From positions 1 through 61,406 of the forward strand of contig JAGHYV010000019.1 in assembly GCA_017743475.1 (NCBI GenBank): a stretch of DNA of 61,406 bases, written 5' to 3'. Below the pieces are notes generated by a model. The model was not told the DNA's origin. It did no database searches and was given only the letters and a program-made list of their open reading frames with translations. The position numbers and the translations under genes were made by a program. Positions 21,831-51,500 of this stretch are shown piece by piece; within the stretch, counting starts at the first letter, position 1; every line of letters starts with the position of its first letter. Source of the stretch: Roseiflexus sp. (GTDB lineage Bacteria > Chloroflexota > Chloroflexia > Chloroflexales > Roseiflexaceae).

Positions 21831-23124
21831 CCTGCTCTCCTTCCACGATCGTTATCAACCAGGCGCTATCGCTGCTCCGCAGCAGCAATTCATTACCGTA
21901 CCACTCACCGGTCAGATCGGGGTGCGCCGGTATCTCTGCGAGAACCGCTTCACCGATGATCAGGTTGCCTTCCAGCCGCCCGATGATGACCCGCCTTTCC
22001 TGAACCGTAACCAGGCGTAGCATCCCATCTGCACATCGCGTAATTGCCCGCGCATCGAGAGCAACGTGACGCTCTGGCAGCAGGGCGTCCAGGCTTGCAC
22101 TCCACATATGCACTTTTCCTTCTTCGTCGGGTGCGATCCAGATAATGCCATTGTCACCCCAGGCATAGGGCGGTAACCCGTCTGCGGCAGGCTCGGCAAT
22201 GACAGTCGCGACCGGTGTCGGACGCAGGCGCGCCAGAGTCAGCGCCCGTTGTTCGCCTTCGCTGCTGGCGATCAGCACGGCGCTTCCTGCTGGATGCCAG
22301 GCAAGCCCAGTGATTCTGCCAGGAATGGCAACCACCGGAGTCGGTGGTGATTCGGGGGTCATGTACCGGATCTGTTCGCCTGCTACGGTGCGTTCCGCTA
22401 GCAGCAGCGCCTGACCATCCGGCGCAAATCGCAGCAGCGATATGTTGCCGACGCCTGTGGCAATTACGCGATCCCAGCCGCGCACCACGACCTGACTCTC
22501 CTGCTGGCTGCCGGGTCGGGAGGGTTCGTACACTGCCTCGTAGCCAACGTCGCCAACAGTTAACACATCGGCACGCCCGCGATAGGCATCGATGGTCATC
22601 AATCGTTCAACCCCGCGTGAACCGATAGCAATCGTCTGCGTCGCCAGATCGCGATGGTCGGCGTCATTTTCCCTGGTTTCGGTGGGGAGCACTGCCACGC
22701 TCTGTACCCGCCACGAATCGCCAGCGCGCCAGATCGCGGCGACAGGCATACCGGGCGCGGCAGACGGCATCCGACGCACACGCGGCGCTGGAAGTCCGGG
22801 GGGAAGTGAAAGGGTCGCGGTTTCTCCCGACCGAAGCGTGAGACGCGTCCAGGATCGACGCCCATCCGGCAGGGTTGCCACAACAGTGTGCGTGCCTGCA
22901 TAAATGTCGCCTGTCCAGGGTCGCCCATCGACATCGATGGATGCGCCTGGGACGGTCTGAATGATGAGTTCGGCACGTCCACGCCAGATAGGTGGAATAA
23001 ATCCGCTTGTGACGCCGATCAGTGCGCTGGCAACTAGCGCGACGACGGCTATGTTCCAGTGCCAGCGATAGACGATCCGCGCCAGAAGCGCGTCGAGGTT
23101 GATTCGATACCCTGCAATAATCAT
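21811..23124 (-). CDS. Membrane-anchored PEGA and beta-propeller-like protein
   Basis: A 437-residue protein with one transmembrane helix (about residues 23-43 from this start), a PEGA-like domain ('IIQTVPGASIDVDGRPWTG...AGTHTVVA...LRSGETATLSLPP') and then a repetitive all-beta region with WD40/TolB-like turns ('LLRFAPDGQALLLAER', 'LAWHPAGSAVLIASSEGE', 'YAWGDNGIIWIAPDEEG'). The propeller probably faces outside and binds a partner. The start at 23124 overlaps the virB4 stop as ATGA; the frame is open to 23172. It has no counterpart in standard Tad or VirB systems that I know and may be a lineage-specific subunit. Confidence 0.65.
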   Translation of the reverse strand: MIIAGYRINLDALLARIVYRWHWNIAVVALVASALIGVTSGFIPPIWRGRAELIIQTVPGASIDVDGRPWTGDIYAGTHTVVATLPDGRRSWTRLTLRSGETATLSLPPGLPAPRVRRMPSAAPGMPVAAIWRAGDSWRVQSVAVLPTETRENDADHRDLATQTIAIGSRGVERLMTIDAYRGRADVLTVGDVGYEAVYEPSRPGSQQESQVVVRGWDRVIATGVGNISLLRFAPDGQALLLAERTVAGEQIRYMTPESPPTPVVAIPGRITGLAWHPAGSAVLIASSEGEQRALTLARLRPTPVATVIAEPAADGLPPYAWGDNGIIWIAPDEEGKVHMWSASLDALLPERHVALDARAITRCADGMLRLVTVQERRVIIGRLEGNLIIGEAVLAEIPAHPDLTGEWYGNELLLRSSDSAWLITIVEGEQDACTTD

Positions 23125-24977
23125 CGGTCGCCCCCTGTTCCCGTGACGATGCGATGGATCGTTTCGGGCCACTTTGGAATGAAGAGCGGTGTGCGTTCAC
23201 CGTCCGCCAGAAGCAACGCCGTTGCGCCAATTCCCCGCTCGATCCGACAGGTCGCCAGATACGCTGCCTCCTCTTCATTCAGGTGCAGAATGGCAGTCGC
23301 CCGGTTAACTGCGTCCGAATCGCGGTTCAATCCGAGGATGAGTTTGGTGCGCGCATTCTCCAGCAACACGCGCGTTTGATCACTTTCGTCCAGATCGTCG
23401 AGGCTCTGGGTGATAACAGTCGCTTTGAACTGCAAACTCCGCCCGATGCGAAAGATCATTTGCAGGGTGCGCGCACCGACTTCCGAGTGAAGCAGGGCGT
23501 GCGCTTCGTCGAGCACTAGATGGCTACGACGACCGGTGGGACGGTTGATCGCAGTGGTCACAAAAAAATCCATGACGATCACGGGCAACAGACGCGCAAG
23601 CGTTTCGTCGTTGCTCTGGAGCAGTGTCCAAAGATCGAGCGCCAGCAGCGGGTTGTCGGTCGGCACGTTTGATGGATGGTTGAACAAATCGCCAATCGTG
23701 CCGCGTGTGAAAAGCGTCAATGCGCGCGCCAGCTCGGGGGCGGTTGCCGCCAGGTGCTGCTGCACATCGCTGAAGGTGGGCATCGGTTGGGTGAAGGTGC
23801 GTGGATCGCTGCTGATCCCGCGTGCTGCATAGGCGGCAGCAATGGCATCCTGGATCGCTGCTGCGCCAACTGCGTCGATCGCCGCGCCCTGTGCTTTCAG
23901 TTCACGCGTTATCAGCGCTTTGACAACGCTGATCCGCTGTCCAAGCAGGTCCTCCTCCAGCGCAGCGACAGCGCGGGCGCGCTCCGGCGCGAGCGGCGGC
24001 AGTTCCAGGGGGTTGATATGGTACCCGGCACGACCGGAGAGCGAAATGTACGCCCCGCCAAGCGCCGTCGTCAGCGAGCGGTATTCCTGTCGCTTCGGGT
24101 CGAGAATGAGCAGGGCATCTTCGCCAAGCGCCAGTTCCTGCGCCAGCAATCCGCCCATGGTGTAGGTTTTGCCGCTCCCCGACTCGGCGACTATCAGCAT
24201 ATGCGGATTGGTCGCCTGCCAGCGGTCATACACGATCGGCGCGCCGCTGCGGGGATGTTCTCCCCACACGATGGGCAACCCGCCGCGACGTGTCAACCCC
24301 GGCGCAGCGGTTGGCAACCCCATCGCAGCGGCGCGCCCGCTAGTGTCATGCAGCAGTCCGGGTTGATCGTATCCGAGCGGCAAAGCGCCCAGATACCCTT
24401 CCCATTGTTGAAATTGCACAACACCCAGCAGGATGCCCTGCTGAGCCGCAGCCAGACGCACACGATCCACGCGCGCTGCCAGTTCTTCGGGTGTCGCGGC
24501 AGCAATTGTGATCGTCACCGCTACCTGGAACAGGCGATCCGTTCCTGCGGTCAGATCATGGCGCAGCGCCGCCGTCGCTTCGACCCCCTGTTGCGCTTCC
24601 ATGTCGAAGTGCGTACCCGCCTGCGCATCACCTGCCAGCGTGCCCAGCGCCGCGTCTTCACTGCGCGCCAGCACCCGACGCGCCAGTGCGTCGGGTACAG
24701 GAACCAGGCGTTGGTGGACGGTCGTGCCAGGGGCGTCGAGACCCAACGCCGGATCATCGAGCCACGCCAGCGAGAGTGTCGGCGGAAATGCGCGTACCTC
24801 CAGTGTGGTCATGAACGAATCGCCAATCTGCACCATATGGCTCCAGCGCCGGTCAATGCCGTCCGGCGCCAGCAACGTGGTGAGCGTGGTCGCGCCGGAG
24901 ATCAGCGCAGCATTTGGACTGCGACGATGACGCGCCGGCTCGATGATCGGTTTGGATAGCGCTTCGCGTAGTGACAT
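23121..24977 (-). CDS. virB4: VirB4/TraC-like conjugation ATPase
   Basis: A 618-residue VirB4-family ATPase, the central energiser of type IV secretion systems at the cytoplasmic face of the inner membrane. The N-terminal domain is short. Walker A is 'VAESGSGKTYTMGGLL' at about residues 263-278, followed by 'LILDPKRQEYRSLTTALGG', Walker B 'SHLVLDEAHALL', and the family's 'VITQSLDDL' sensor and 'LENARTKLILGLN' arginine region. All catalytic residues are intact. A detached VirB4 N-terminal-type protein is encoded 20 bp upstream. It overlaps the next gene by ATGA. This is the strongest T4SS marker in the cluster. Confidence 0.9.
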   Translation of the reverse strand: MSLREALSKPIIEPARHRRSPNAALISGATTLTTLLAPDGIDRRWSHMVQIGDSFMTTLEVRAFPPTLSLAWLDDPALGLDAPGTTVHQRLVPVPDALARRVLARSEDAALGTLAGDAQAGTHFDMEAQQGVEATAALRHDLTAGTDRLFQVAVTITIAAATPEELAARVDRVRLAAAQQGILLGVVQFQQWEGYLGALPLGYDQPGLLHDTSGRAAAMGLPTAAPGLTRRGGLPIVWGEHPRSGAPIVYDRWQATNPHMLIVAESGSGKTYTMGGLLAQELALGEDALLILDPKRQEYRSLTTALGGAYISLSGRAGYHINPLELPPLAPERARAVAALEEDLLGQRISVVKALITRELKAQGAAIDAVGAAAIQDAIAAAYAARGISSDPRTFTQPMPTFSDVQQHLAATAPELARALTLFTRGTIGDLFNHPSNVPTDNPLLALDLWTLLQSNDETLARLLPVIVMDFFVTTAINRPTGRRSHLVLDEAHALLHSEVGARTLQMIFRIGRSLQFKATVITQSLDDLDESDQTRVLLENARTKLILGLNRDSDAVNRATAILHLNEEEAAYLATCRIERGIGATALLLADGERTPLFIPKWPETIHRIVTGTGGDR

Positions 24978-24996: not shown

Positions 24997-25659
24997 TCAA
25001 CGGTCTCGCACCACGGAGCGGATTCGTTCGAGCAATACGCCCTGCAACGGGTAGCGCGCCGCCCGCACCGGATCAACCAGGCGAAACCAGAGTCGTGCAA
25101 TCTCCTCAGGTTCGAGCAGGCGTGGTTGGGGCGAACCACCAAGCGCCATCAGCGCATCCGCCAGTCGCCGCGCACGTTCGACCGCCTCTGTAAGCAATGC
25201 AGCAGCGCGTGACGTCGATCCGGCGACTTTGTTTGCGCTCCAGAGCGCTCCAATCGTCCGGGGTCTGACGCCCGCCGGTCCATCGCTACATGCGATAGCC
25301 CAGATTGTTTGTCGATGACGACTGGCGGTTGCACCGGCGCATTCCTCCAGGTATGCCGCCATATCGTCCAGGACAGCAGTCAGCGTCGGATGCCCTGCCT
25401 GATTACTGCGGCAGTAGAGTTCGGTCATCTCCTGATCCAGGTCGGGAGGTCCGTCGATGATGTAGATATCGACAGGCGCATCCTGCGCAAGCAGGGTGCG
25501 GTGGTACGTCTCCGCCAGGCGCGCTTTGCTCTCACGCGAACGTAAATCCCAGGCGGGGGCGCCGCCAGTAACGAGTCCGACAGCGCATCCGTCGGAACGC
25601 AGGATTGCGCCACGCACGATACGCTGCGGAATCGCACGGTGCAGTTCAGTCGTGCTCAT
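24997..25659 (-). CDS. Probable detached VirB4 N-terminal-domain protein
   Basis: A 220-residue soluble protein directly upstream of virB4. Sequence such as 'RIVRGAILRSDGCAVGLVTGGAPAWDLRSRESKARLAETYHRTLLAQDAPVDIYI' fits the start of the VirB4/TraC N-terminal domain as found as separate proteins in some Gram-positive-type systems: an 'RG...D' strand, a 'DLRS' helix start, and a conserved 'Y-x-x-x-L' helix. I infer that VirB4 is split into two genes here; the alternative is an unrelated adaptor. It overlaps the VirB3/PrgI-like gene by 14 bp and precedes virB4 by 19 bp. Confidence 0.5.
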   Translation of the reverse strand: MSTTELHRAIPQRIVRGAILRSDGCAVGLVTGGAPAWDLRSRESKARLAETYHRTLLAQDAPVDIYIIDGPPDLDQEMTELYCRSNQAGHPTLTAVLDDMAAYLEECAGATASRHRQTIWAIACSDGPAGVRPRTIGALWSANKVAGSTSRAAALLTEAVERARRLADALMALGGSPQPRLLEPEEIARLWFRLVDPVRAARYPLQGVLLERIRSVVRDR

Positions 25660-26041
25660 CAGAAGCCTCCTGATAGTGCCAGTGCGGACGACGCTGCTTA
25701 AGCACGGGTGATAATGCTTCTTCGGGCGGTAGCACTATGTGCGGCTGGATCAGGCGGAGACGTTTCGGACGTTTGAGATGTCGCCATGCGATGCCAGCCG
25801 CTTCACGCGATGAACGTCCCCAAAAACGCCCTTCCAGCAGCGCCAGTCCCAGAAAGATCAGGCAACCGCTCGCCCAGATCGTGCGCTCGATATCGGCGCC
25901 GAGCGTTATGGCGATCCCTCCGGCCGTCAGTATGCCGATGCTCATCAGAAACGCGCGTGCAGGCAGGCGCATGCCGGCAATCTGCACCGACGCATGCAGC
26001 CGCAAACGTCGCGGCGGCGCTACAGTCAGGTAATCGCTCAT
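25646..26041 (-). CDS. VirB3/PrgI-like small membrane protein
   Basis: A 131-residue protein with two adjacent hydrophobic helices (about residues 30-65) between short charged tails. The plan matches VirB3/PrgI-type T4SS proteins, which sit in the inner membrane and recruit VirB4. It lies between the VirB2-like pilin gene and the VirB4 genes, the classic position. I set the start at 26041 (MSDYLTVAPP); ATG at 26047 is also possible. Sequence conservation in this family is too low for certainty. Confidence 0.6.
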   Translation of the reverse strand: MSDYLTVAPPRRLRLHASVQIAGMRLPARAFLMSIGILTAGGIAITLGADIERTIWASGCLIFLGLALLEGRFWGRSSREAAGIAWRHLKRPKRLRLIQPHIVLPPEEALSPVLKQRRPHWHYQEASDEHD

Positions 26042-26060
26042 ACGCACACTCCTTTCCAGT

Positions 26061-26360
26061 CTATCCGGTCAATCCCATGGCCCACGCCACAATGCTCGAC
26101 GATTGGTTGGCAACCACAAGAAGAATGACGAAGACCGCCAGATCGATTCCGGCGCTGCGCAAGTCGCGCGGGGACGAAAAGATATGTTTTGCCATATCGA
26201 TCAGCAGGAAGAAACCGCCAGCAACGGCAATGATGTTCTTCAGCCAGTCGAAGAGCGCCTTGAACAGTCCATCGAATTTTGGCGGATTGGCAACGATCTG
26301 CCAGAGATCTGCCGGGAGATGGGGTCCAAGTGCGCCGATTGTGGTGATGATGGGTTCCAT
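26061..26360 (-). CDS. VirB2-like small pilin/membrane protein
   Basis: A 99-residue hydrophobic protein beginning MEPIITTIG after AAAGGAGCT. It has two transmembrane stretches ('IIAVAGGFFLLIDMA' and 'GIDLAVFVILLVVANQSSSIVAWAM') separated by a charged loop ('KHIFSSPRDLRSA'). Size, topology and position just before the VirB3/PrgI-like gene fit a VirB2/TrbC-type pilin or the small channel proteins of T4SS loci. No typical long cleaved signal sequence is visible, so a pilus role is unproven. Confidence 0.55.
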   Translation of the reverse strand: MEPIITTIGALGPHLPADLWQIVANPPKFDGLFKALFDWLKNIIAVAGGFFLLIDMAKHIFSSPRDLRSAGIDLAVFVILLVVANQSSSIVAWAMGLTG

Positions 26361-26423
26361 TGTGCCAGCTCCTTTCAGATGATGAGAAAACATTCACGAC
26401 GGCACAGGATGCCGGGTGGAAAG

Positions 26424-29258
26424 TCACCTTGATGTCGATCTGCCTGCCTTGCCGCCGCCATACTGTCCGCCATCAGCATCAGGTGACCAGTACTGCCCGA
26501 CTGACGGTTCGCCAGGACGTGGCTCACGGTAGAGCGAACCGGGGTAGTTCGGTGGCGGCAGCTGATAGGGCGCTCCTTCGGGTAAGCCCGCCGGGTTGTC
26601 TGGTGGCGCCAGCGGAAGAAATGCCAGCGGATCGACCATATCTGTCCAGCAGTTTGTTTCCGGCGGCGGCTGGAGATCCCGCAGCCATTCGGGCGTGCAG
26701 ATATTGATCATCGGGAAGCTGCCCGTGTAATCGCGCTGTCGCATCCCCAGGTGCAGGTGCGGTCCGGTAGTACGCCCCGTCAGCCCAACAAACCCCACCG
26801 GCGACTCCAGTTGATACAACCGATCGCCAAGACGCACTGGCGGACCACATCCTGGTAGTGTTTCGACGGGACGCGCAAACGAAGGAATACCTGCCACGCA
26901 ACGTTCGCGCATATCACCTTCCGGGTAGGTATCGCTGCCCGGCGGCAGCGCCTGGCAACCGACACTGCTCCAGTTGATCTGCGGAAATGCGGCTTGCAGA
27001 CGCTGTATATTCCAGACTTCCAGCATGGCGCTCGCCCAACTGATCCCATTCGGGCGGTATTCGTAGTGCCACCACTCTTGGGAATCAGCGCGATCCGGGA
27101 TACGGTTCCAGCCATGGCGCTCGAAGATCGCGGTCACATCGGTCAGGTTGAGATACAACCGCCACATGCGCCCTTCACGCACCCGCCTCCAGGGGAAGCC
27201 AGTGTCCACATCGATAGCTCGACCAGTCATATGCCACGACATCAGCGCAACCCCTGGCTTGTTCGAGCGAAACTCCGGCTGGCGCAGCGCATCGGCAAGC
27301 CGCGCGAGTGGATCGTGTCCGGTTGTGGCGATAATCTCGGCGCGCACTGCGGCAAAACTGCGCGCTGCATCTTCGGCGAGCATCATGTTTGTTGTTGTGC
27401 CAGCAGCATTCACAACACCGGGCAAGGGAACGAGCGCCTGCACCCGACACACTAGCGGCGAGTCTCCCGGTCCCCATCCGGGTCCTAGCGGAGGTCCGGC
27501 TACCAGTGTCACTTCCGGGAGAATAATCTCCGGTGGAAGGGGGAGCGCTGGGGGAACCGTTGGCATTACCGGCGCTGGGTAGGGTGCCGGTGTAGTGGTT
27601 GGCAGCTGAGTTGGCGGAGGCCAGGGTCCGGGTGTGACCGCGTATGGCTCAATGAGCAGATTCAGCATCGTTGTCCGTTGTTGCACTGGTGATGCAGCCA
27701 CGCTGCGAAGGGTCTGAATACTGTTCATTGCTGCACCCGGCAACGCTTCCACCACGAACTCAGTGAAGAGAACATACGGACCACCCCCTTCGCATCGGAC
27801 GGTGTGCGCTGTGGGAGTGCATCGCACGTCGCCGGAAACGTTGGTGATACCCAACACTATCAGGTTCGCGCCGACATCGACATCCACTGTCAGGGGCCAG
27901 TCGCTGCTTGTGGCAGACAGCGCGACCCGGCGACGTCCGCCCACCGGCAGACGAGGGGCGCCGACTGTGCTCATGCTGAGCGTGAGAAAGGAAGAGGTTT
28001 GTCGGGGTGGCGTCGCGGTAGGTGAAGGTACGTCAGGCAGGTGAAAGAACAGACCAGTCTGCATCTCACGTTCCAGGCTTCCCATGCCAGACGTGACCCG
28101 GTGACGATCATCATGCCGCGACGCAACCGGAATGTCCGCCAGTCGCCACACGCAGTACACGCCAGCGCCGTATGGTCGGCAGGGATCGCTGGTTCGCTGG
28201 TTGCCCTGGTGCGCTGCCAGGTCGTTCATGTCTGGCGCGCGTCCGCCTGCGATTGGGGTCTGCACCCCCGGCGTCGGGGTTGCGGTCGGCGGGGGTGGCG
28301 GCGGCACGAGATGCGCGCGGAAACGTAGCGCGACATCCCCAGCGCGGCGTTGACCACGCACACCGCTCAGCGGCGTTTGCCAGCGCAACGTGGCCCGTCC
28401 CTGCCTGTCCGCCGGGGGATCGTCGGCAGTCCAGCCGCGCCAGCCATTGCCGCGTTTCCCCCAGATCACACCTGTCTGGCAGGATGCCGGGCGGTCGTAG
28501 AGAAAGGTGATCGTCCCGCCGTCGCGTGTCGGCACGAAGACCGGCTTATCTCCCTGACACCAGATCGCAATCGACCCTTCGTCCACATCGGGAACCAGTT
28601 CGCCGCTGCCGATCGGCTGGTAGTCGGCATACTCGTCGTAGCGCCCATACTCATCGACGATCCGCCCCTGGAGTTGCACATACAAGCGGTATGGTTCCAG
28701 ATGAGCGTAGATCGTCTGATATGCGCCGCGACTGCTTTCAACGATGACAATCTGACCGCCGCCTTCCTTCGCCGGACGACGTGGCGCGTTCGGGTCCCAC
28801 CCGACATAGGTGACCATCCCATCGAACATCGCAGGGAGGATGCAGCGGTATCCAAACGGGCATGCGCCGGTCGGATTGATGATGTCAATGCCATCGTGGA
28901 ACTCCGGTTGACCGGTGATCGGATGACGACGCCAGCCGAAGCGACTGGAGATAGCCCAACCGCCTGCGCGGTAGGTTCCGTCGGGCAGCACGTCCGGCGG
29001 CACGGGCCAGGGCAGCGCGGTGTGCTGAAAGACGGCGCCGAGCGCGCCCACAATGATCAGGATCAGCCCGCCGATCAGGATGATCGTCAGCGCAACCAGC
29101 ATTGCAACGACTACGACCTTTCCGCCAGCGGCTGCGCCGGTTTTCATCAGCGCCGACCCGACTGCCCGCAGCGCGCGTTGCCCGGCAACGCGACCCGCGC
29201 TGATCGCTGCATCACGCACCGGTGATGGCGCCCGGCGATTGTCCGCATCGTCATTCAT
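26424..29258 (-). CDS. Cell-wall hydrolase: M23 peptidase split by an M15-like domain
   Basis: A 944-residue protein with one N-terminal transmembrane helix (about residues 48-75). The first half of an M23/LytM domain follows: 'SSRFGWRRHPITGQPEFHDGIDI' with metal ligands H121 and D125. Then comes ~550 residues including Pro/Thr linkers, a jelly-like beta region and an M15/VanY-type core with 'SWHMTGRAIDVD' (S674, H676, D683) and 'EWWHYE' (E728, H731). The second half of M23, 'VGLTGRTTGPHLHLGM', supplies H834 and H836. Both active sites look complete. T4SS loci usually carry a wall hydrolase (VirB1/CwlT type) to open peptidoglycan; this likely does that job. Its start overlaps the VirB6-like gene (ATGA). 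Confidence 0.8.
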   Translation of the reverse strand: MNDDADNRRAPSPVRDAAISAGRVAGQRALRAVGSALMKTGAAAGGKVVVVAMLVALTIILIGGLILIIVGALGAVFQHTALPWPVPPDVLPDGTYRAGGWAISSRFGWRRHPITGQPEFHDGIDIINPTGACPFGYRCILPAMFDGMVTYVGWDPNAPRRPAKEGGGQIVIVESSRGAYQTIYAHLEPYRLYVQLQGRIVDEYGRYDEYADYQPIGSGELVPDVDEGSIAIWCQGDKPVFVPTRDGGTITFLYDRPASCQTGVIWGKRGNGWRGWTADDPPADRQGRATLRWQTPLSGVRGQRRAGDVALRFRAHLVPPPPPPTATPTPGVQTPIAGGRAPDMNDLAAHQGNQRTSDPCRPYGAGVYCVWRLADIPVASRHDDRHRVTSGMGSLEREMQTGLFFHLPDVPSPTATPPRQTSSFLTLSMSTVGAPRLPVGGRRRVALSATSSDWPLTVDVDVGANLIVLGITNVSGDVRCTPTAHTVRCEGGGPYVLFTEFVVEALPGAAMNSIQTLRSVAASPVQQRTTMLNLLIEPYAVTPGPWPPPTQLPTTTPAPYPAPVMPTVPPALPLPPEIILPEVTLVAGPPLGPGWGPGDSPLVCRVQALVPLPGVVNAAGTTTNMMLAEDAARSFAAVRAEIIATTGHDPLARLADALRQPEFRSNKPGVALMSWHMTGRAIDVDTGFPWRRVREGRMWRLYLNLTDVTAIFERHGWNRIPDRADSQEWWHYEYRPNGISWASAMLEVWNIQRLQAAFPQINWSSVGCQALPPGSDTYPEGDMRERCVAGIPSFARPVETLPGCGPPVRLGDRLYQLESPVGFVGLTGRTTGPHLHLGMRQRDYTGSFPMINICTPEWLRDLQPPPETNCWTDMVDPLAFLPLAPPDNPAGLPEGAPYQLPPPNYPGSLYREPRPGEPSVGQYWSPDADGGQYGGGKAGRSTSR

Positions 29259-31450
29259 GGGTTGCGCTCCTTTTCGTCAGAAGCAAGCACTGACGGCATG
29301 ACCGGGGAGCGTGACAGAGACCGCAGACTCCTTGCAGGAACGCGACGTTCTGTCACGACGGCGGGACGACGTAGCGGCGACGATAGTTTTTCCATGCTCC
29401 AGGGTTCGCGTGTGCGGGGTGGTGTGGCAAGACCTTCGGCTGCCAGTCGTTGTCGCATCAGTGCGGCCGCGTGTGCGCGGGTCGCTGCGGCGACAGTCAT
29501 TCCTTTCGCGGGGGTCAACGCAGCCACCCGCGCCTGCCGCTCCTGGATGCGCGCCATGATCACTGCGCGCTGATCGGGCGGAGCAGCGAGGAGGTCGCGC
29601 TCATCGCGTTGCAGCGCCGCCATTGTCTCTTCACGCTCGATACGATGCTCAGCCTGCGCTTCGAGCAGCGCGGCGCGGGCAATGTCGCGGCGGCGACGCT
29701 GCTGATCGGCGCTCCACGGCGACGGGCGCGGGCGAAGGCGACCATCTGCGAATGCTTCTTGAAGCCCGGCTCTTCGTTCAAGCTCGGCAGCGCTCCGCGT
29801 TTTCGCCAGACGCTCATCGCCGGGTGTTCTAAACCCGATGCCGCGCCGGATTTCATCAGCCTGAACCCGCATACCATGCGCGTGAATCGCTGCCATCTTT
29901 CGCCGCGCTTCGTCAGGTCGCTCCCCGGCAATTGCCCGGACTCTTAGGCGGTCGTACTCACGTCGGGTGCGACTGTCGGCGACGGGCATGCGGAAGGGAA
30001 CCCGACCATCGAGGGGGCGGGGTGCAGCGGCTGAGCGCCCGTTCCCATCAGGCTTCAAAACTTCGCGCGCTGTTCGCTCGAACGCGCCATCGACCCCGCG
30101 TCGCGCTAGGAAGTTGCCGCTGGCGGAAGCAACCCTCTCTGCCGCTCCGGTTGCTCCTGTGACAACAGCGTTCCTGCTGTGCCGCCACATGAACCCTTGA
30201 ATCCGCGACACCAGCGGCGTGCCATGCGTGACCGACTGCGCCATGCCGGTCAACCGTTCAGAGCCGAGCACCGTCACCAGCAACGTTAGCAAACCAAGCA
30301 CATAACCGGTGAACACCTGGTCTGATCCGCCGCGCAGCGGTGTTATCATTCCCACGGCGACGATCATCGTCGCTGCCAGCGCAATCTGCTCGATCAGCAG
30401 ATCGAAGAGACGACCAAGCCATCCATAGAACCGTGGCGCCGTCGAGCGGTCCATCAGCAACGCGCCTGCCAGCGGCGCGAGTCCGACCAGCACCATGATG
30501 CGGACAACCCGAAAGGCGTTTTTGATGATCAACCATGCCATCGCCACCCAGAAGAGGGCATAGATCAGCGCCGCACCTGCGTTCAACTCGTGCCCGATCG
30601 GCGTTGGCATTTCGAAGGAGGCTCTCGTCAGCAACTCGTCGCTGATAGCATTGAAGAGATCGATCACCAGTTGAAGCGTCGCCTGGGTCGAGTTGATGAA
30701 CAATGAAACACCCAGGAACGTCAGCACCAACCCCTTCCCTTCGGTGACGAAGCTCTGCTGCCCTTCTGCCAGCAATCGGCTCATCCGCACTACAAAAAGG
30801 AGCGTGACCAGCAACTGCGCAACGGCGCGCATCACGCTCCAGATCGCCTGCATGCCTGGATGATTGTAGGTGAGCGAGGAAGGCGTGCAGAAGACGAAGT
30901 TGGTTGCAGCGTTGTCGCGACAACTCGATGGAATGATCGTCCATGATTGAACATTCTCACCCGCCTTGATCAGAGCGGCTGCTACACGCTGGATCGTCTC
31001 GCCAAAGGTAAGAATCACCCCGGCAAAGACGCCCATGCCAGCGTCGAGCACCCACATGCCCGGATTGAGTGAGCGCGAAAACCAGGACGAAGGCTCGGAC
31101 GAAGAAACCATGTCGTACCGATTCCGTGGCTGCACTGCGGTTGGCGGCGCCAGCGGGTGCACATCCTGCCAAAGTGACGCATCGGCGCTGATCTGGGCGG
31201 TCGATCCTTCCGGCAGCGGCGGATCGCCGCGGGTGCCGGGCGCATCGGCATAAGCCGGGAGAGGGAGACACAGCGCGAGCGCCAGGAACACCATCCACAC
31301 GCACAGGCCGTATCGCCAAACCTGCCGTGGAGTGCGCGCCAGACGTGCGCGGTCAGAAAGATGGCGCGTCTGAGCGTGGAGTGTGCCTGATGTCGAGCTA
31401 TGAGGAACAGATTGCGCCGTGGTATCTGCACTATTGTTCTGCGATGTCAT
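29255..31450 (-). CDS. VirB6/TrbL-like polytopic membrane protein
   Basis: A 731-residue protein. After a probable signal segment ('YGLCVWMVFLALALCLPLPAYA'), the central ~300 residues contain about six transmembrane helices: 'MWVLDAGMGVFAGVILTFG', 'VMRAVAQLLVTLLFVV', 'GLVLTFLGVSLFINS', 'AALIYALFWVAMAWLII', 'IMVLVGLAPLAGALL', 'LLIEQIALAATMIVAVGM' and 'FTGYVLGLLTLLVTVLG'. The order and the 'VLVGLAPLAGALL' loop resemble VirB6/TrbL/TraG-N channel proteins. The C-terminal ~270 residues are charged and probably cytoplasmic, rich in Arg and Ala. GGGAG precedes the ATG at 31450. It is separated by 100 bp from the VirB8-like gene, the largest gap in the cluster. Confidence 0.75.
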   Translation of the reverse strand: MTSQNNSADTTAQSVPHSSTSGTLHAQTRHLSDRARLARTPRQVWRYGLCVWMVFLALALCLPLPAYADAPGTRGDPPLPEGSTAQISADASLWQDVHPLAPPTAVQPRNRYDMVSSSEPSSWFSRSLNPGMWVLDAGMGVFAGVILTFGETIQRVAAALIKAGENVQSWTIIPSSCRDNAATNFVFCTPSSLTYNHPGMQAIWSVMRAVAQLLVTLLFVVRMSRLLAEGQQSFVTEGKGLVLTFLGVSLFINSTQATLQLVIDLFNAISDELLTRASFEMPTPIGHELNAGAALIYALFWVAMAWLIIKNAFRVVRIMVLVGLAPLAGALLMDRSTAPRFYGWLGRLFDLLIEQIALAATMIVAVGMITPLRGGSDQVFTGYVLGLLTLLVTVLGSERLTGMAQSVTHGTPLVSRIQGFMWRHSRNAVVTGATGAAERVASASGNFLARRGVDGAFERTAREVLKPDGNGRSAAAPRPLDGRVPFRMPVADSRTRREYDRLRVRAIAGERPDEARRKMAAIHAHGMRVQADEIRRGIGFRTPGDERLAKTRSAAELERRAGLQEAFADGRLRPRPSPWSADQQRRRRDIARAALLEAQAEHRIEREETMAALQRDERDLLAAPPDQRAVIMARIQERQARVAALTPAKGMTVAAATRAHAAALMRQRLAAEGLATPPRTREPWSMEKLSSPLRRPAVVTERRVPARSLRSLSRSPVMPSVLASDEKERNP

Positions 31451-31550
31451 TGGCAGCGCTCCCCTACATATGATGTCCGGGTTACGGTCATCTACGCGGG
31501 TCATGCGCCTGCCCGCAGGTGCAGATCAGTTCCCCGGTCTCCTGAACTTT

Positions 31551-32261
31551 TTACCGGATAAGCATTGTTGTTGCTATATCAACAATCCGCCACCCATCGT
31601 CGTCCTGACGCAGCACATACCGGTTGCGTGTCAGGATGCCGCGTCTGCTGCTGACGATACGTTCGCCAATAGTGATGATCACGTCCCACTGCTCCTGAGT
31701 ATCGACCCACGCGCCTTCAGGTGTGGTGTCGCTCGCCAGAACCCCCCAGCGCACCAGCGTCGCCTGGTGGCGTTCACCGGTCTCCGCGCGCCGTGCATAC
31801 TCCTGAATCACTGCCTGCCACGCAGGTCCATCGGGCGTCAGGTAAGGACTAAGCACGTCCGCCCTGCCCTGCATCGCTGCCAGCACACTCGCCTGGTTGT
31901 ACGCCGCCAGAAAGCGAACCATATCATCTGGCACAGGCGGGAGCGGGTGCACCGGAGATAATTGCGTATAAGCGCTCTGAATTATGGATAATGAGTCTCG
32001 ATATTCCGTATCCCGGATCACATCCCCGAACCGGATGAGAGACCAGATGGCGATCACAATGCCACACACACTGGCAACACCCATAAGCGCGCGAGGGTAG
32101 CGCATCATCCCTGTCAGTAACTGGTCGAGCGGCTGCCAGGCGAGGATGATGGATACCAGGCGGTCACTCAGCGGCGGACTGACGGTATCGTTCCAGCGTC
32201 GAGCGGCACGCTGCGGCGGTGAATAACGATGTCGAGAACGCGGGCGGCGAAAGGGTTTCAT
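31551..32261 (-). CDS. VirB8/TcpC-like NTF2-fold membrane protein
   Basis: A 236-residue bitopic protein. A basic N-terminal cytoplasmic tail precedes one transmembrane helix ('ALMGVASVCGIVIAIWSLI'). The C-terminal ~140 residues end in 'WDVIITIGERIVSSRRG...RNRYVLRQDDDGWRIVDIATTML', a strand pattern typical of NTF2/SnoaL-fold domains such as VirB8 and TcpC, with the 'L...DGWRI' closing hairpin. In conjugation machines VirB8 is an assembly factor in the periplasm. It starts at 32261, 13 bp after tadC ends. Fold-level assignment only. Confidence 0.6.
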   Translation of the reverse strand: MKPFRRPRSRHRYSPPQRAARRWNDTVSPPLSDRLVSIILAWQPLDQLLTGMMRYPRALMGVASVCGIVIAIWSLIRFGDVIRDTEYRDSLSIIQSAYTQLSPVHPLPPVPDDMVRFLAAYNQASVLAAMQGRADVLSPYLTPDGPAWQAVIQEYARRAETGERHQATLVRWGVLASDTTPEGAWVDTQEQWDVIITIGERIVSSRRGILTRNRYVLRQDDDGWRIVDIATTMLIR

Positions 32262-32274
32262 TGCTGGTCTCTTT

Positions 32275-33066
32275 TCAGAAACGTTCCATAACACCGCTGC
32301 CCATCACAATCACAAAAATGATCTGCACCAGCACACTGACGACCGCAAGCGCCGCAAGCGCGAGCAGGTACAGTTTGCGTCGCTCAATCGTGCGGCGAAA
32401 CTCATCGTGGAGCACCTGATTGAGCGTCGTCTCCTGCGCCAGCAATGCCGCCTGCGGATCGGACCCCTCCGCTTCAGCCTGCGCCAGCGCCTCGGTGACA
32501 TCGATCAACTCCTGGCACCCACGGTCGCGCGCAATGCGTCGCAACGCATCGAACGGCAAGATGCCACGATCGTGCACCAGATTCAGGGCATCGGCAACCA
32601 CACGCTGCATCGAGGCATAACGGTCATCCGGTCGCATCAGGTAGCGTTCGAGCAGAACCGGCGGTGCATCGTACCCGGCAAGTGCCACGCGCACATACGC
32701 AACAAAGGAAGGGGTCAACTGTCGCAATCGTTTCTGCTCCCGTTGTCTGTTTGTCACCGGCTTGCGCGGAATGACAATCCCAACATAGAGGTAGATGCCG
32801 AGCGCGGCGGTTGCGAGCAGCAAACGCGGCATGCCATCAACTCCAGCAGAAGCGATGAGAAGCACAGGAACCGCTGCCAGCGGCAGCGCCGCAAGGTGCC
32901 CCAGCACGAACCGACCGGTCATTCCCCAGCGCGACGGAAGGGTGCGCAATCCACTCGCCAGTGCGCGGGCATGATCGATCTGCATCATCCCGATAGCAGC
33001 GATCAGAACCCCCGCAATGCCGATAAACACTGTCCAGACCCCTGGTAGGATGAAGATGTCGCTCAT
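32275..33066 (-). CDS. tadC: TadC-like type II/IV pilus membrane protein
   Basis: A 263-residue GspF/TadC-family membrane protein with hydrophobic helices near residues 8-25, 55-75, 80-100 and 238-258. The conserved domain has 'KRLRQLTPSFVAYVRVALAGYDAPPVLLER' and 'ARDRGCQELIDVTEALAQAEAEGSDPQAAL'. TadB and TadC form the inner-membrane platform on which the ATPase acts. It lies 22 bp after tadB. Order tadA-tadB-tadC is the canonical one. Confidence 0.8.
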   Translation of the reverse strand: MSDIFILPGVWTVFIGIAGVLIAAIGMMQIDHARALASGLRTLPSRWGMTGRFVLGHLAALPLAAVPVLLIASAGVDGMPRLLLATAALGIYLYVGIVIPRKPVTNRQREQKRLRQLTPSFVAYVRVALAGYDAPPVLLERYLMRPDDRYASMQRVVADALNLVHDRGILPFDALRRIARDRGCQELIDVTEALAQAEAEGSDPQAALLAQETTLNQVLHDEFRRTIERRKLYLLALAALAVVSVLVQIIFVIVMGSGVMERF

Positions 33067-33088
33067 TGGTTACCTCGTTCTGTTTGCT

Positions 33089-34039
33089 TCAGTACGTCAC
33101 GTCTTCGGCGTGTCCGAGCAGATAACCGCCGATCAGCGGCATACAGACGACCAGTGCCAGCACTGTGCCTACGATCAAGCCCAGTTCGCTGCGGTATGCT
33201 GTCAGAAACCGTTCGTTCTGGACGACGAACAGGTAGAGGGTGATGCCGACATTGATCAGGAACAGGGCGATGCCGGTGTTACGCATTTGGGAGAGTTCCG
33301 TTGTCAGCATACTGGCGCGGCGATCAGACGCCTGCATCGCCTCGTATGCAGCACGAATCCGCTGCACCAGCGCAGCGTGCGGTTGCTCAATGGCGATTTC
33401 CAGATGGCCGAGAAACGTGGCATGGCGACGCGATGGTGTCTGAGCGCGCAACGCAGCGCACACGGTCGCTGCTGTGGCAAGGAATCCGTTGGCGATCGGT
33501 TGCCCCAATCGCTCCAGAAACCATGACCACTCAGCTTTGAGCGGCGACGCGGGCATATCGGCGATGACCTTCTCGATCGCAGGTTGCAGACCACTGCCGG
33601 CGCGCACCTGCACTTCCAACCGTCCGACGAATGCTGGCAGCGCCGCGTCAATACGGGCGACATAGCGTTGTTCTTCAAGCCAGAGCAATGCCCAGACGAT
33701 CATTGCAGTCGCCGGTCCTGCCAGCACAACGGCGACGAGCAACGGTCCCACCTGGCTCAGGATTACCAGGATGACCAGTGCTGCAATCACACAAACGGCA
33801 AGCAGACGCGACGCGGCAATAACCGGCGGGCGCCAGCGCAGCGCCGGATCGACGATATCTTCGCCGGAAGGAGCGAATCGTCGCGCAAGCCAGGCATCGA
33901 GCGCCGATCCCAGTCGGCTCTGCATCAGGAACGTCACAATCAGGATTGCGGCAATCGTCGCTGCCAGCGGCGTCAGGTCCGCCAGCCATGCAGTTTCGGG
34001 ATGGGTCGTGTGCGGCGTGATGATCGACGTCGGATCCAT
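33089..34039 (-). CDS. tadB: TadB-like pilus platform membrane protein
   Basis: A 316-residue TadB/GspF-type protein with helices near residues 15-32, 65-105 and two at the C-terminus. The GspF-like core reads 'ALPAFVGRLEVQVRAGSGLQPAIEKVIADMP'. The ATG at 34039 follows AAAGGA at proper spacing; the ATG at 34057 overlaps the cpaF stop (ATGA) but reads through the same binding site. Coupled translation with cpaF is likely either way. It works with TadC as the membrane base of a Tad pilus. Confidence 0.8.
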   Translation of the reverse strand: MDPTSIITPHTTHPETAWLADLTPLAATIAAILIVTFLMQSRLGSALDAWLARRFAPSGEDIVDPALRWRPPVIAASRLLAVCVIAALVILVILSQVGPLLVAVVLAGPATAMIVWALLWLEEQRYVARIDAALPAFVGRLEVQVRAGSGLQPAIEKVIADMPASPLKAEWSWFLERLGQPIANGFLATAATVCAALRAQTPSRRHATFLGHLEIAIEQPHAALVQRIRAAYEAMQASDRRASMLTTELSQMRNTGIALFLINVGITLYLFVVQNERFLTAYRSELGLIVGTVLALVVCMPLIGGYLLGHAEDVTY

Positions 34040-34053
34040 AGGATAAGTTCCTT

Positions 34054-36123
34054 TCATGCAGAGGTGGTGGCTGAGACGTGATGCTCACTAGAAGTCTCGA
34101 GCGCACGCCGTTGCGCGCGCACGGTGGCCAGCGCCGCTGCCGAACCCTGACCTGCCTTCACCAACTGTTCCATTGCCTGTTCGCGCACACGGATCAGCGG
34201 TAATGCTATGGAGAGCGGCAGATCCGAAGGGGTGAAACGGGCGAGCATATCTACTGCAAGACGCGCCTGCCCCTGATCGAGGGCGCGCTCCGCCTCGATC
34301 CGCGCCTCTTCTGCGGCAAGTTCCGCTGCAATTCCCTGGCGGATCAGCGCTTCAACCGCTTCCCAGCCACCGGGAGGGGCAGCGTGCGCGGCAAGCGCCA
34401 GATCGGTCATGATCGCATCGAACGCCAGGCGTGCGTCGCGCCAGCGGTTCGACGCCATGAGCCGTTGCAGTGCGGCGCTTTCCGCATCTGCCTGTTGGAT
34501 CAGACTGGCAAACATACCCGGCGCCTGATTCAGCGCATCCTGCGCCGCACCGATCAGGCGCGGATCGCGGCGTTGCAACCAGGCATTGCGCAGCGTGGCG
34601 AGAGCGCGTTCCGGTTCACCTGCCAGCGTGTGGGTTTGAGCGCGTGAAATCGCATCGGCAACCGTATCGAGAGATGTGGCGGTCTGGCGCACCTGCGCCA
34701 GCGCGCGCGCCCGCACCAGTTTCTCACGCAGCGACTCAGGGGTCGGGTCACCTTCGTCCCATTCCAGCAACCCGCCAGCACCCACAGTCGCCTGGCAGTG
34801 CCAGTCAATCCTCCCGTCGGGCAGCACATCGACCCTCGCCAGCGGAACCAGCGCCGGGCGGAGCACGCCCTGATCCACGACAGCACCGTCGAGGAGCGCA
34901 ATATCGGTGATCAGGCGCAGACCAAGTTCTTCCCAGTTATCGAGTTTAATCACCACATCGAAACCACTGGCGGCATCACGGAGCGCATCGCCACGCCGAC
35001 CTTCATACATATACGCTCCTGGCATGGCGGCAAAACTGGCAAAGCGCTCGATTGCTTCACTGCACGACCGCGCGTGCAGTGTGGTGATCACTGGATGGTC
35101 GGAGAGAACTAGTGCCAGGACGGCACCAGCCTCATTGCCCCGGATTTCGCCCGGACAGAGAAGATCAGGCGTCTGGCGCAGCGCTTCCCTGGCGACGCGC
35201 CCAAAGGCGTCAGGATCGCGCTGCGTGTTCACCTGTTCGCGCGTCCAGAGATCGGCTCGGCGAATATGGATCTCCTGCATGTGGTCTTCGATGGTAAGGA
35301 TGTGCGGGTCGCCGGGCCAGGAGTTGGCGAGCGCTTCGAGCAGCGCCGTCTTGCCGCTGCCGGTGCGTCCGGCGATCAAAAAGGAGCAGCGCGCCCGTGC
35401 CAGCAGCAGGAGCAGATCTGCGATCTGCTGGTTGAACGCGCCGCGCTGCATCAGGTCGTGCACGTCCCAGGCGACGCGCCGTCCGCGACGGATGCAGATC
35501 AGTGCACCATCATCGGTGGGGATGCGTGGCGGAATGGTCGCGTGAATGCGCGTTCCATGATCGGCTGGCAGTGTCTCCTGCGGGTTTTGGGCGTCGAGGT
35601 GAACACCCATGAGCGATGCGAGGAGCATTGCGCGATCCCGCACTTCGGCAGCGCTGGCAAACTGTTCTGCGACGGTGAGGAACGGTTTGCCGCTCTCCTG
35701 CACGCGAATGCGACGCCCAATGATCTTGACTTCGTTGACGCGCGGATCGTCGAGATAGCGCTGCGCTGGTCCCCATCCGATGGTCGCAGCAAAGATTGCC
35801 AGCAATGTTTCGTCATCGGTCGGGACGCGCGCCAGCGGTCCGCCGCGCGTCCGATGCTGCCCGATTGCCCGGCGCAACACAGTGATGACTTCAGTATTCC
35901 GCTCGCCGGCTGGCGCGAACGGGTTCAGCAGGCGCCGTCGCTCGTCGGTGCTGAATGCGTGTTGCAGTTCGTCGCGGGCTGCCTGAAGGATCGCCGCCTC
36001 GCGTAACACTGCTTCACGCCCCAGCGTATCGGTTGGTCCGCCAAGCAGGGTTGCCAGACCACCATCTTCTTCGATGGAAAGTGGCGGCGCACCTCCCGAA
36101 GTGGATGGGTTTGGATGATTCAT
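34054..36123 (-). CDS. cpaF: CpaF/TadA-type secretion ATPase with C-terminal extension
   Basis: A 689-residue hexameric ATPase of the VirB11/TadA class that powers pilus assembly. The N-terminal domain precedes Walker A 'LIAGRTGSGKTALLEALAN', the Asp box 'ILTIEDHMQEIHI', Walker B-like 'DLLCPGEIRGNEAGAVLALVLSDH' and the His box 'VITTLHARSCSEAIERF'. Ordinary CpaF proteins are about 400-480 residues; this one carries about 220 extra C-terminal residues, helical and rich in Ala, Arg and Glu, of unknown role. The start at 36123 is preceded by AAAGG. It overlaps tadB. A second ATPase of the same class lies at 37436. Confidence 0.88.
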   Translation of the reverse strand: MNHPNPSTSGGAPPLSIEEDGGLATLLGGPTDTLGREAVLREAAILQAARDELQHAFSTDERRRLLNPFAPAGERNTEVITVLRRAIGQHRTRGGPLARVPTDDETLLAIFAATIGWGPAQRYLDDPRVNEVKIIGRRIRVQESGKPFLTVAEQFASAAEVRDRAMLLASLMGVHLDAQNPQETLPADHGTRIHATIPPRIPTDDGALICIRRGRRVAWDVHDLMQRGAFNQQIADLLLLLARARCSFLIAGRTGSGKTALLEALANSWPGDPHILTIEDHMQEIHIRRADLWTREQVNTQRDPDAFGRVAREALRQTPDLLCPGEIRGNEAGAVLALVLSDHPVITTLHARSCSEAIERFASFAAMPGAYMYEGRRGDALRDAASGFDVVIKLDNWEELGLRLITDIALLDGAVVDQGVLRPALVPLARVDVLPDGRIDWHCQATVGAGGLLEWDEGDPTPESLREKLVRARALAQVRQTATSLDTVADAISRAQTHTLAGEPERALATLRNAWLQRRDPRLIGAAQDALNQAPGMFASLIQQADAESAALQRLMASNRWRDARLAFDAIMTDLALAAHAAPPGGWEAVEALIRQGIAAELAAEEARIEAERALDQGQARLAVDMLARFTPSDLPLSIALPLIRVREQAMEQLVKAGQGSAAALATVRAQRRALETSSEHHVSATTSA

Positions 36124-36150
36124 GGCGTTTCTACCTTTCATGGCGCACCT

Positions 36151-48236: not shown

Positions 48237-48587
48237 AAGAGTACATGCCAGAACTGAACACCAACAACCGGAACCCGCTCTCGTCCTGAAGGGTATGATA
48301 ACACACTGGAAGGACGCATCGCTGTCGCAGGTGGCGATAGGGTGCTACGCTCCGCCCGACCGAAGCGGAGACGCTGCACTGCAACTTCTCTACTCCAGGA
48401 AGACGTGCCACGCTAATTGATGAAGAATAACGAACTGCTATGGGCTGCAACGTCTCTACTCCGGGAAGGCGCGCCACGCTAACCTTCCACCTTCCCACGC
48501 TCAACCTTCAACGTTCGACGGAACTCCTGCTACCCTGTCAGCGTCTTGAGAGTACAGATGCTATCCGACGCAAGGAGAGACGATGAT
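48237..48587. other. Spacer with CRISPR-like pair and simple repeats
   Basis: About 350 bases between the divergent MNT gene and the macroglobulin gene. No credible gene. It contains a hairpin-like CTCCGC/GCGGAG pair near 48350-48370, the direct repeats at 48379-48482, and a run of AACCTTC/ACCTTC-type simple sequence near 48482-48520 that resembles the tract at 55691-55790 in reverse complement. Confidence 0.55.
48379..48482. repeat. Two 38-bp direct repeats, CRISPR-like spacing
   Basis: Repeat 1 (48379-48416) and repeat 2 (48445-48482) both begin CTGCAAC and end GCCACGCTAA, matching at 34 of 38 positions. They are separated by 28 bases of unique DNA, a 66-bp period. Repeat and spacer lengths are those of a CRISPR unit, but only two copies exist and no cas genes are near. 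It could be the decayed end of an array or a dispersed repeat pair. Confidence 0.55.
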
Positions 48588-51500
48588 ATGCCTCCGCTCT
48601 ACTGCCAGTTTGCGATCCTGTTGATACTTGCGGTGACTCTCGCTGCATGCGGCGGACCGCGCCCGCAACTAACCCCGGTGACTGCGCAACCCACTCCGGT
48701 TGCCCCGCAACGTGATATTCCCCCACCGCCGGATCGCGCGGCACCGATCCTGGTCGCCCGCTCGCCCGAACCGGGACAGGCGCTCGATCCGGGCGCGCCG
48801 ATTGAACTGGTCTTCGACCGTCCGATGGATCGCGCGTCGGTGGCAGCGGCGCTGAGTGTCGCCGGTGTGACCGGCGCCATTGAATGGCCCGATGCGCGCA
48901 CGGTGCGCTTCGTTCCGTCCGCGCCGCTGCAACGCAATTCCACATATGAGGTTTTCCTACGCGAAACAGCGAAGGGCGAGGACGGCTTGCCACTCGCGGC
49001 GCCGGTGCGCTTCCGCTTCGCCACTGCCGGATTCCTTGAGGTCGGGCAGGTGATCCCTGCTGACGGCGCGACTGATGTGCAGCCCAATTCGACTATCACG
49101 GTCTTCTTCAACCGCCCGGTTGTACCACTTACGGCGATTGAGTCGCAGGCGAACCTGCCGCAACCGGTGACATTCGACCCGCCGATTGCAGGACGTGGCG
49201 AGTGGTTGAATACGGCAATCTATACATTTACGCCGGATGCACCGCTTGCCGGCGGCGCGACCTACACGGGGCGCGTTGCCGCCAGCCTGACCGATGTGAC
49301 CGGTAATCCGCTCCAGTCGGAGTACACCTGGCGTTTCACCGTCGCCCGTCCGCAGGTGGTGACGATTGACCCATCCGATGGCGCAACGCTCGTACCGCTG
49401 CAACCACGCATCACGTTGCGCTTGAATGTGCCAGTCGATCCTGCGTCGGCGCGCGCTGCGTTTCGTCTGCTTCAACCGAATGGCGCCACCGTGCCCGGCG
49501 ATCTTCAGATTGATGGCGCAACGCTGGTGTTCACCCCTGCCCAACGGCTGGAGTTCGACACGCGCTACACTGTCGAGGTTGCCGCCAGTCTGACCGGCGT
49601 TTCGGGCGGGTCTGGCATGGCAAACGATTTCCGCGCTACCTTTCAGACTGTCCCGCGATTGCGCATTCTTGGAACCGATCCGCCTGATGGCACCACGAAC
49701 GTGCCGCCCGGCAATGGATTGACCATCCGCTTCAACGCACCAGTCGATCCGACAACGGTTATGCCGAATATGACCATCACGCCACAGCCGACGCAGGTCT
49801 ATACGTATGGCAATGAGTACGACAATTCATTTTTCATCGGCATCGATGCTCTGCCCTCGACAGAGTACACCGTCACGATTGGACCGGATATCGCCGATCC
49901 TTACGGGAGTCGCACCGGTCAGTCCTTGACGGTGCGTTTCCGCACTGCGCCGCTGGATCCCTGGGTCTATCCGCTGACACCCGGTTTCATCACGACGTTC
50001 GACGCTAACCGCGCGCCCCAGATTGCGCTGATGGCAACTAATGTCACCAGTGCGTCGCTAAGGCTCTACCGCCTGCCGGTCGAAGCAGTGGTGCAACGCG
50101 ACATCCTCGCCTCCGACGGCATCAACCCTCCCGCAAGCGCAACGCCGGTGCGTCGCTGGCAGGCGCAGTTCAGTGTGCCGCGCGATGAGCCGACAGTTGT
50201 GCGCGTCGATCTGACGGAACGGGGGGAGCGCCTCGATCCCGGTGTCTACCTGCTTATGCTGGATACACCTGCGGGCACGACCGAAGCGCGCCTGCTGGTC
50301 GTCTCTGCGCTGCACCTGACGCTGAAGGCGGCGGAACGCAATGCGCTGGTGTGGGCGAATGACCTGACGACCGGCGCGCCGGTTTCCGGTCTGACGCTGG
50401 AGTTGTTCGATGAACAGGGCGGTTCGCTGGGAACGGCGACCACTGACTCGAACGGGGTGGCAGTTGCGACGCTGAACCGTACCGAATATCGGGGACTGCT
50501 GGCGGTGGCGCGGCAACCGTTCGCGATGTTCGGCGCCGATTGGGGCGCGGGGGTCAGCCCGTGGGATTTCAGCCTCCCGACGTCGTTCGATCTTCCCGAA
50601 GTGACCGCATACGTCTACACGGATCGCCCGATCTATCGTCCCGGTCAGCGGGTGTGGTTCAAGGGCGCAGTGCGCGCCGATAACGATGTGCGCTACACTC
50701 TCATTCAGGGGTTGAACGCGGCGCAGGTCACAGTCTACGATGCCGCCGGCGAAGCAGTCTTCCAGCAGCCGATCACGCTCAATCTGAATGGCACGTTCGA
50801 CGGCGGATTCGCGCTGGCGGAGGGTGCGCCAACCGGTCAGTACGCAATCAACCTCAATGTCGGCGGGCGCGTGTTCAGTTTTCCGTTCCAGGTCGCCGCT
50901 TACCGTCCGCCGGAGATCGAAGTCACGGTGACGCCGCGCGCTGCTGAGGTTGTGCGCGGCACACCAACCGAAACGACGGTGCGCGCCGGGTATTTCTTCG
51001 GTGCGCCCGCAGCGAACCTGCCGGTGCAGTGGAATGTGCTGGCTGAACCGTTCACGCCTGTACCCGATTGGGCAGGCAGGTACACCTTCGGTGAATATGG
51101 CGATCTGTGGCTCTGCCGTTTCTGCTGGTGGGTTCCATCACCTCCACCGCAACCGATCCTCTCTGGCAGCGCGACGACCGATGCGCAGGGGGAGGTGGTC
51201 ATCAGTCTGCCGGGTGAACTGCGCGACTCGGAAGGGAATGTCATCACCCGCAGCGTGCGCCTCACCGTCGAGGCGACCGTCACCGGGCGCGATAACCAGG
51301 CGATCAGTGGACGCACCTCTGTCATCGTGCACGCCAGCGACCTGTATGTCGGTCTGGCGCCCCGCACCTACGTCGGCAGGGCAGGCGTTGCGCAGCAGAT
51401 CGATCTGGTGACGATCGATACGCACAGCGATCGTCTGGCAAACCGCACGGTTGAGATCGAACTGGTGCGCATCACGTGGGAGAACCGCTTCGTGCAGGAC

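Follow-up and report, generated by a model that had tools for sequence, protein, structure and literature searches.

A Roseiflexus membrane-anchored protein with an M15-type peptidase core nested in one interrupted M23 peptidase domain

In the 61,406-nucleotide stretch of Roseiflexus DNA that we analyzed (the window), a gene at 26424..29258 on the minus strand encodes a membrane-anchored protein in which one M23 peptidase domain breaks off after Y190 and continues at P807. The insert (aa 191–806, 616 residues) is about five times the size of its host M23 domain and carries an M15-type peptidase core. The open reading frame starts with ATG, has no internal stops and yields a protein of 944 aa; orthologues in five other Roseiflexus-type genomes (69–92% identity) keep the full-length architecture. 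The best explanation, which we consider rather probable, is that this protein is the wall hydrolase of an export machine, with one M23 peptidase made from two distant pieces of the chain and an M15-type peptidase inserted between them. A literature search, outside which most subscription papers fell, found no paper on a nested or split M23 domain.

The initial annotation had pointed to an HxxxD motif (H121, D125) far from an HxH motif (H834, H836) and had proposed one M23 domain with a large insertion between them. Every cited residue lay at its stated position, and Pfam, phmmer, HMM pieces and alignment each bore out the proposal. Pfam M23 (PF01551) matched in two stretches, with 37.2 bits where the cut-off is 28.7. 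In a phmmer search of solved structures, aa 103–197 and aa 821–857 matched the M23 structures 3slu and 6muk (E 5e-6) as adjoining, in-order parts of one M23 chain (3slu 228–302 and 311–347). An HMM of length 137 was built from 57 non-redundant, unrelated M23 domains of phage contigs. On the window protein, its positions 14–85 fell on aa 102–190 and positions 98–120 on aa 820–842 (full E 1.8e-18), and on six other fused homologues the pieces ran from 14 to 85–88 and from 87–89 to 120–126, with full E-values of 7e-21 to 1.8e-18 over the whole set. The two pieces are complementary, with near-zero overlap or gap, indicating that the halves form one M23 domain.

All 57 M23 rows of the alignment placed H, D, H, H and H on H121, D125, H186, H834 and H836, and none contributed a residue to aa 193–804; as the rows had been selected by their HxGxD and HxH motifs, the free results here are H186 and the spacing. 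This alignment puts the insert at about aa 191–806, between the strand bearing H186 and the next strand. In M23 peptidases, a third histidine (LytM His260) lies about 30 residues ahead of HxH (PMC9662197). With the insert discounted, H186 lies about 31 residues from H834 and is the third active-site histidine of the domain; the initial annotation had listed the other four residues correctly but had missed this one. The protein thus carries the complete set of five M23 active-site residues and is predicted to bind zinc at this site.

An AlphaFold prediction from the full protein and four close Roseiflexus homologues gave a pLDDT of 33.5 and was confident only for an Ig-like sandwich. A second alignment included 57 complete M23 rows and omitted two M15-type phage rows, which had misplaced part of the M23 alignment. 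In the resulting model, most of both M23 halves (pLDDT about 80–93) packed as one M23 domain, as the initial annotation had anticipated, and neither two separate M23 folds nor unpacked halves, which it had named as the refuting outcome, appeared; because the whole M23 rows bridge the insert and favored this outcome, the model says that the sequence fits one domain and does not independently establish the packing. The modeled M23 matched lysostaphin (4qpb) with Z 15.5 (132 of 134 residues, rmsd 2.6), the LytM domain of DipM with Z 15.6 and ShyA with Z 15.3, each match extending from the model's beginning as far as residues 801–804. The M15-type core was mostly below pLDDT 50, and neither it nor the beta domain behind the N-half took a defined form in the model; no M15 chain was among the structure matches listed, which does not count against an M15 fold. 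By model comparison, aa 423–540 resemble the Ig domains of pilins and adhesins.

The segments of the protein, all on the minus strand, are as follows from the N terminus. A basic segment precedes a transmembrane helix (aa ~48–78, 29025..29117), seen as a hydrophobic run and as a helix at 46–80 in the model, and the predicted topology is N-in, C-out. The M23 N-half (aa 98–190, 28689..28967), located by Pfam, phmmer, HMM, alignment and model, carries the predicted zinc residues H121 and D125 and the predicted catalytic histidine H186. Then come a beta domain of unassigned type (aa 198–318, 28305..28667), which homologue comparison finds both in fused forms and in gene A of the split relatives described below; a low-constraint linker, proline-rich at its start (aa 319–422, 27993..28304), within whose counterpart gene A terminates; the Ig-like/DUF11-like beta sandwich (aa 423–540, 27639..27992; pLDDT about 83–97, pilin and adhesin matches with Z up to 15.4); a second, proline-rich linker apparent from sequence (aa 541–601, 27456..27638); and the M15-type (LAS) peptidase core (aa 602–770, 26949..27455). 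The M23 C-half with its HxH (aa 807–846, 26721..26840) was located by HMM, alignment and model, and the protein ends in a tail of the pattern YQLPPPxxPGS ... GQYWSPDADGGxYGGG (aa 881–944, 26427..26618). The insert had been described as an M15-type domain; an M15-type core does lie inside it, but this M15-like part makes up only about 170 of the 616 residues, alongside the beta domain, the sandwich and mostly proline-rich spacers.

Across the six Roseiflexus-type genes, dN/dS ratios, which are rough because dS is high, were 0.085 for the M23 N-half, 0.072 for the M15-type core (the lowest among the recognized domains), 0.10 for the M23 C-half (aa 803–880), 0.126 for the beta domain and 0.21 for the sandwich. 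The linker at aa 319–422 had a ratio of 0.50 and the second proline linker 0.18, and two of the spacers lay at 0.30–0.50. The C-terminal tail had the lowest ratio of the protein (0.045) and is conserved also in degenerate relatives, after loss of their M23 residues; it is possibly a docking segment. For split forms, the ratios were 0.035–0.21 in gene A and 0.11 in gene B.

The residues that the initial annotation had cited for a second peptidase core (S674, H676, G679, A681, D683, E728 and H731) were likewise found where it had placed them. They lie in SWHMTGRAID (H676, D683) and EWWH (E728, H731), whose order matches that of the M15 zinc and catalytic residues, and the motifs SxHxxGxAxD and ExxH are invariant in all 13 homologues. 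PF13539 scored 19.0 bits on the window core against a cut-off of 25, with sub-threshold matches in 12 of 15 aligned members and none reaching the Pfam M15 cut-off, so we label the core M15-type and do not file it in family M15. When the M15-type alignment was run as a profile against solved structures, only chance-level matches came back. The putative M15 assignment rests on the motifs together with the sub-threshold Pfam matches, no single match being significant. M15 and M23 are both counted among the LAS peptidases (PMC8416486). The core's relatives are beta-propeller-M15 proteins of Chloroflexota and a phage protein, L173, with a peptidoglycan-binding domain. Among the former, a beta-propeller protein that ends in an M15-type domain is encoded at L032:478-2208 and L033:1011-2543 and is intact (576 aa) in genome G166; in the window's own genome, such a protein is apparently broken into several ORFs.

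Homologues of both halves were found in 12 of 82 genomes of the order. Long fused proteins occur in the six Roseiflexus-type genomes and in genome G334, and short ones, which are missing the sandwich, in G331, G332 and one G333 gene cut by contig ends. In G267, G333 (contig C702, with an extra A gene on C115) and G303, the protein is split between two genes: gene A encodes the transmembrane helix, the M23 N-half, the beta domain and a proline tail, followed by a stop, and gene B encodes its own signal peptide, the M15-type core and the M23 C-half, preceded in G267 by a DUF11 domain at the start of B. The genes are 17 bases apart in G333 C702 and about 400 apart in G267; in G303, B is truncated by an early stop and the A tail appears shifted. 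In split B proteins, the C-half escaped the phage M23 HMM and was identified by direct alignment to fused homologues. Because G333 is a metagenome bin (about 5% contamination), its two systems may stem from two organisms. We considered and rejected sequencing error as the source of the split form, because in G267 and G333 C702 gene A stops cleanly after the proline tail and gene B has a start and a signal peptide of its own (G303 being similar).

The full set of five M23 residues is found in the six Roseiflexus-type proteins, in the G334 protein and in the complete split pairs; among the split forms, four A proteins retain HxxxD and the third histidine, and both complete B proteins retain HxH. 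In G331 and G332, by contrast, the M23 residues are lost (HEAIE, YGG, and RLRLA or HLRLA) and the M15 motif is intact, and the HxH of G333 C351 is without its first histidine. The earlier view that both active sites are retained is supported for Roseiflexus. The condition of G331 and G332 indicates that the family can do without M23 activity, and the loss of M23 residues in some lineages, with the M15 motif kept throughout, argues that the two sites are not equally essential. With the split relatives, an enzyme put together from two secreted chains becomes a possibility, and the division of the outer enzyme between two genes suggests a cutter that would work only once its halves meet.

Beyond the order, two samples from the phylum (301 and 400 genomes) yielded no additional homologue of the nested or the split kind. 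Viral contigs scanned with the family profiles gave only ordinary M23 or distant M15-type proteins, and a plasmid collection gave matches to the M23 N-half only, which, where annotated, are ordinary M23 proteins. In a tree of the M15-type core, fused and split forms fall on opposite sides of a fork whose weak support leaves the direction, fission or fusion, undecided by the tree. We take it as most likely that the insertion into M23 came first and that the gene was later divided by fission in the linker, because half an M23 would be an improbable starting point. A solitary remnant with the HLHLG half of M23 is present at L088:4731-5123 in genome G012, as if a split system had decayed there.

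The gene cluster is of secretion type, in line with the secretion channel of the initial annotation's proposal; the neighboring genes are VirB6-like and VirB4-like. Immediately upstream lies a VirB6/TrbL-like membrane protein gene (29255..31504, minus strand; PF04610 E 0.0023, below cut-off), whose counterparts at the split loci match PF19597 TrbL_4 just under its cut-off. A VirB4-like ATPase gene, backed by synteny, lies at 23121..24977 (minus strand), and between it and the hydrolase gene are three small conserved genes (24997..26393, minus strand; 110, 133 and 220 aa), for which no convincing family match was found. Further upstream, synteny defines a conserved block (31551..36141, minus strand), so that the gene order reads T2SSE ATPase, 322, 263 and 247 aa, VirB6-like, the 944-aa protein, 110, 133 and 220 aa, VirB4-like, 453 aa. 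The 247-aa protein (31551-32294) has very weak NTF2-like matches (E 0.09–0.3) and stands where one might look for a VirB8-like subunit. The order is largely retained in fused genomes, as far as contigs extend and homology is detectable. The slot between the VirB6-like and VirB4-like genes holds the nested protein in every Roseiflexus genome searched and in G334, G331, G332 and G333; in G267, G333 C702 and G303, the split A and B pair directly follows the VirB6-like gene, with the VirB4-like gene further along in G267 and G333. The machine is present in all six Roseiflexus-type genomes with VirB4 88–98% identical, suggesting that it is settled and not recently acquired. At 19941-44258 (minus strand), the VirB4/VirB6-like genes are joined to Tad-like genes, those upstream being two PF00437 ATPases, SAF/CpaB-like, TadE and CpaE-like genes. 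Elsewhere in the window, 48546-54590 encodes a bacterial alpha-2-macroglobulin-like protein (2014 aa) with Ig-like domains.

The protein has a predicted membrane anchor and outward hydrolase domains and is encoded with VirB4 and VirB6, as VirB1-like proteins are. A T4CP (PF02534) and a MOBP relaxase (PF03432) were absent from the six genomes searched with these two families, and the machine may therefore be something other than a conjugation system; we describe the protein as one that would work like VirB1 and do not file it as part of such a system. That absence, together with the Tad-like genes upstream, also speaks for a Tad-like pilus or other envelope apparatus, distinct from a type IV secretion system (T4SS), for whose assembly the protein would trim the wall. 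We think this unlikely, though by no means negligible, because the immediate neighbors are VirB6-like and VirB4-like and the pairing is kept in the split form. The wall-hydrolase role itself is the best supported, on the grounds of synteny, the membrane anchor and the two peptidase cores. The contrary reading, that the whole arrangement is an artefact of chance HxxxD and HxH motifs or of two unrelated half-domains, has the large separation of the motifs in its favor and nothing else that we found; phmmer, the HMM, alignment, model comparison and full-length conservation all contradict it, leaving it barely credible. Chance motifs were rejected; with the phage M23 HMM, the best of 300 shuffled controls gave E 1.3.

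The alternatives that remain concern which site works. The complete residue sets of both zinc sites and the strong purifying selection in Roseiflexus indicate that both probably act on peptidoglycan peptide bonds, and retained residues and selection favor two active sites there. It is nevertheless possible, if rather doubtful, that only the M15-type site works and that M23, its residues kept by happenstance in Roseiflexus, serves as a scaffold, peptidoglycan binder or regulator, like the degenerate LytM of PrgK or DipM, which regulates other hydrolases: the M15 motif is invariant across all 13 homologues, G331 and G332 have lost M23 residues and G333 C351 the first HxH histidine, and the degenerate LytM of PrgK down-regulates that protein's own muramidase (PMC11323569), a precedent for a LytM domain turning regulator in such a protein. 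Against this stand the five M23 residues kept in the six Roseiflexus-type proteins, G334 and the complete split pairs, and the low Roseiflexus M23 dN/dS (0.085–0.10). The reverse arrangement, an active M23 with the M15-type core as an inactive or binding module, draws on the sub-threshold Pfam scores and the want of a sequence match to a solved M15 structure. We judge it quite improbable, because conservation of the M15 zinc-ligand and catalytic residues is strict and exceeds that of the M23 residues, because the core has the lowest dN/dS among the recognized domains, and because L173, which matches endolysin families, joins a related core to a peptidoglycan-binding domain.

In the preferred reading, a wall hydrolase with both peptidases at work, one N-terminal helix would hold the protein in the membrane with the remainder outside the cell. 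There, the turn after the strand bearing the third active-site histidine would be replaced by the 616-residue excursion, carrying the beta domain, the Ig-like sandwich and the M15-type peptidase on flexible linkers. Both sites would cut peptide bonds of peptidoglycan, opening a hole for the channel, and the M15 module, with both its ends joined to the M23 body, would be held at the same place in the wall. Two-step cutting, of cross-bridge and stem peptide as the initial annotation had proposed, is plausible. Computation shows the nested M23 with its residues, their selection, the synteny and a family in fused, degenerate and split states; topology, zinc binding, catalysis, the bonds cut, the order of the cuts and the machine's cargo are inferred. 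Where the protein is encoded by two genes, an M23 site would arise only once anchored A meets secreted B. We tentatively extend this, with less than even confidence, to the proposal that these relatives have a naturally split M23, A bringing H, D and the third His and B bringing HxH and the M15-type enzyme, so that the zinc site would arise only upon assembly of A and B at the machine; the fused Roseiflexus protein would be a single-chain version of this wall-cutting safety switch.

Wall-spanning machines require hydrolases that cut solely where and when a channel forms. A peptidase within a peptidase that occurs naturally in fused, degenerate and split versions within a single bacterial order offers a comparison for how such cutters stay off until assembly and for which of the two activities matters. 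Among known systems, PrgK is the precedent for a multi-domain, membrane-anchored wall hydrolase in a Gram-positive T4SS (PMC11323569; PMC12857230). Our best reading of the nested protein is by analogy, as a putative VirB1-like wall hydrolase for a VirB4/VirB6-type machine and a nested counterpart of PrgK. Like PrgK of pCF10 (VirB1-like, DELTA class; LytM-MUR/SLT-CHAP), it has a membrane anchor and several outward wall-hydrolase domains including M23/LytM; PrgK is part of a T4SS, and its LytM is degenerate (PMC11323569), as is the M23 of G331 and G332. Unlike the nested protein, PrgK carries its domains in a row, has a muramidase and CHAP and has no M15, and the two are likened by domains, not by sequence relationship. 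The M23 fold is shared with lysostaphin, LytM, ShyA (6muk) and the LytM domain of DipM, and the five active-site residues with the active ones among them; in all of these M23 is contiguous, whereas here the insert follows the third histidine and some relatives use two genes. The Chloroflexota beta-propeller-M15 proteins (L032, L014) have the same SWHxxGRAxD and WWH/YWH motifs and GWxR pattern at 34–36% identity, but their M15 follows a beta propeller at the C terminus and does not interrupt another peptidase. The endolysin-like phage protein L173, an M15-type core with PG_binding_1, shares these motifs and 30% identity over the core, and it is stand-alone where the Roseiflexus core is nested.
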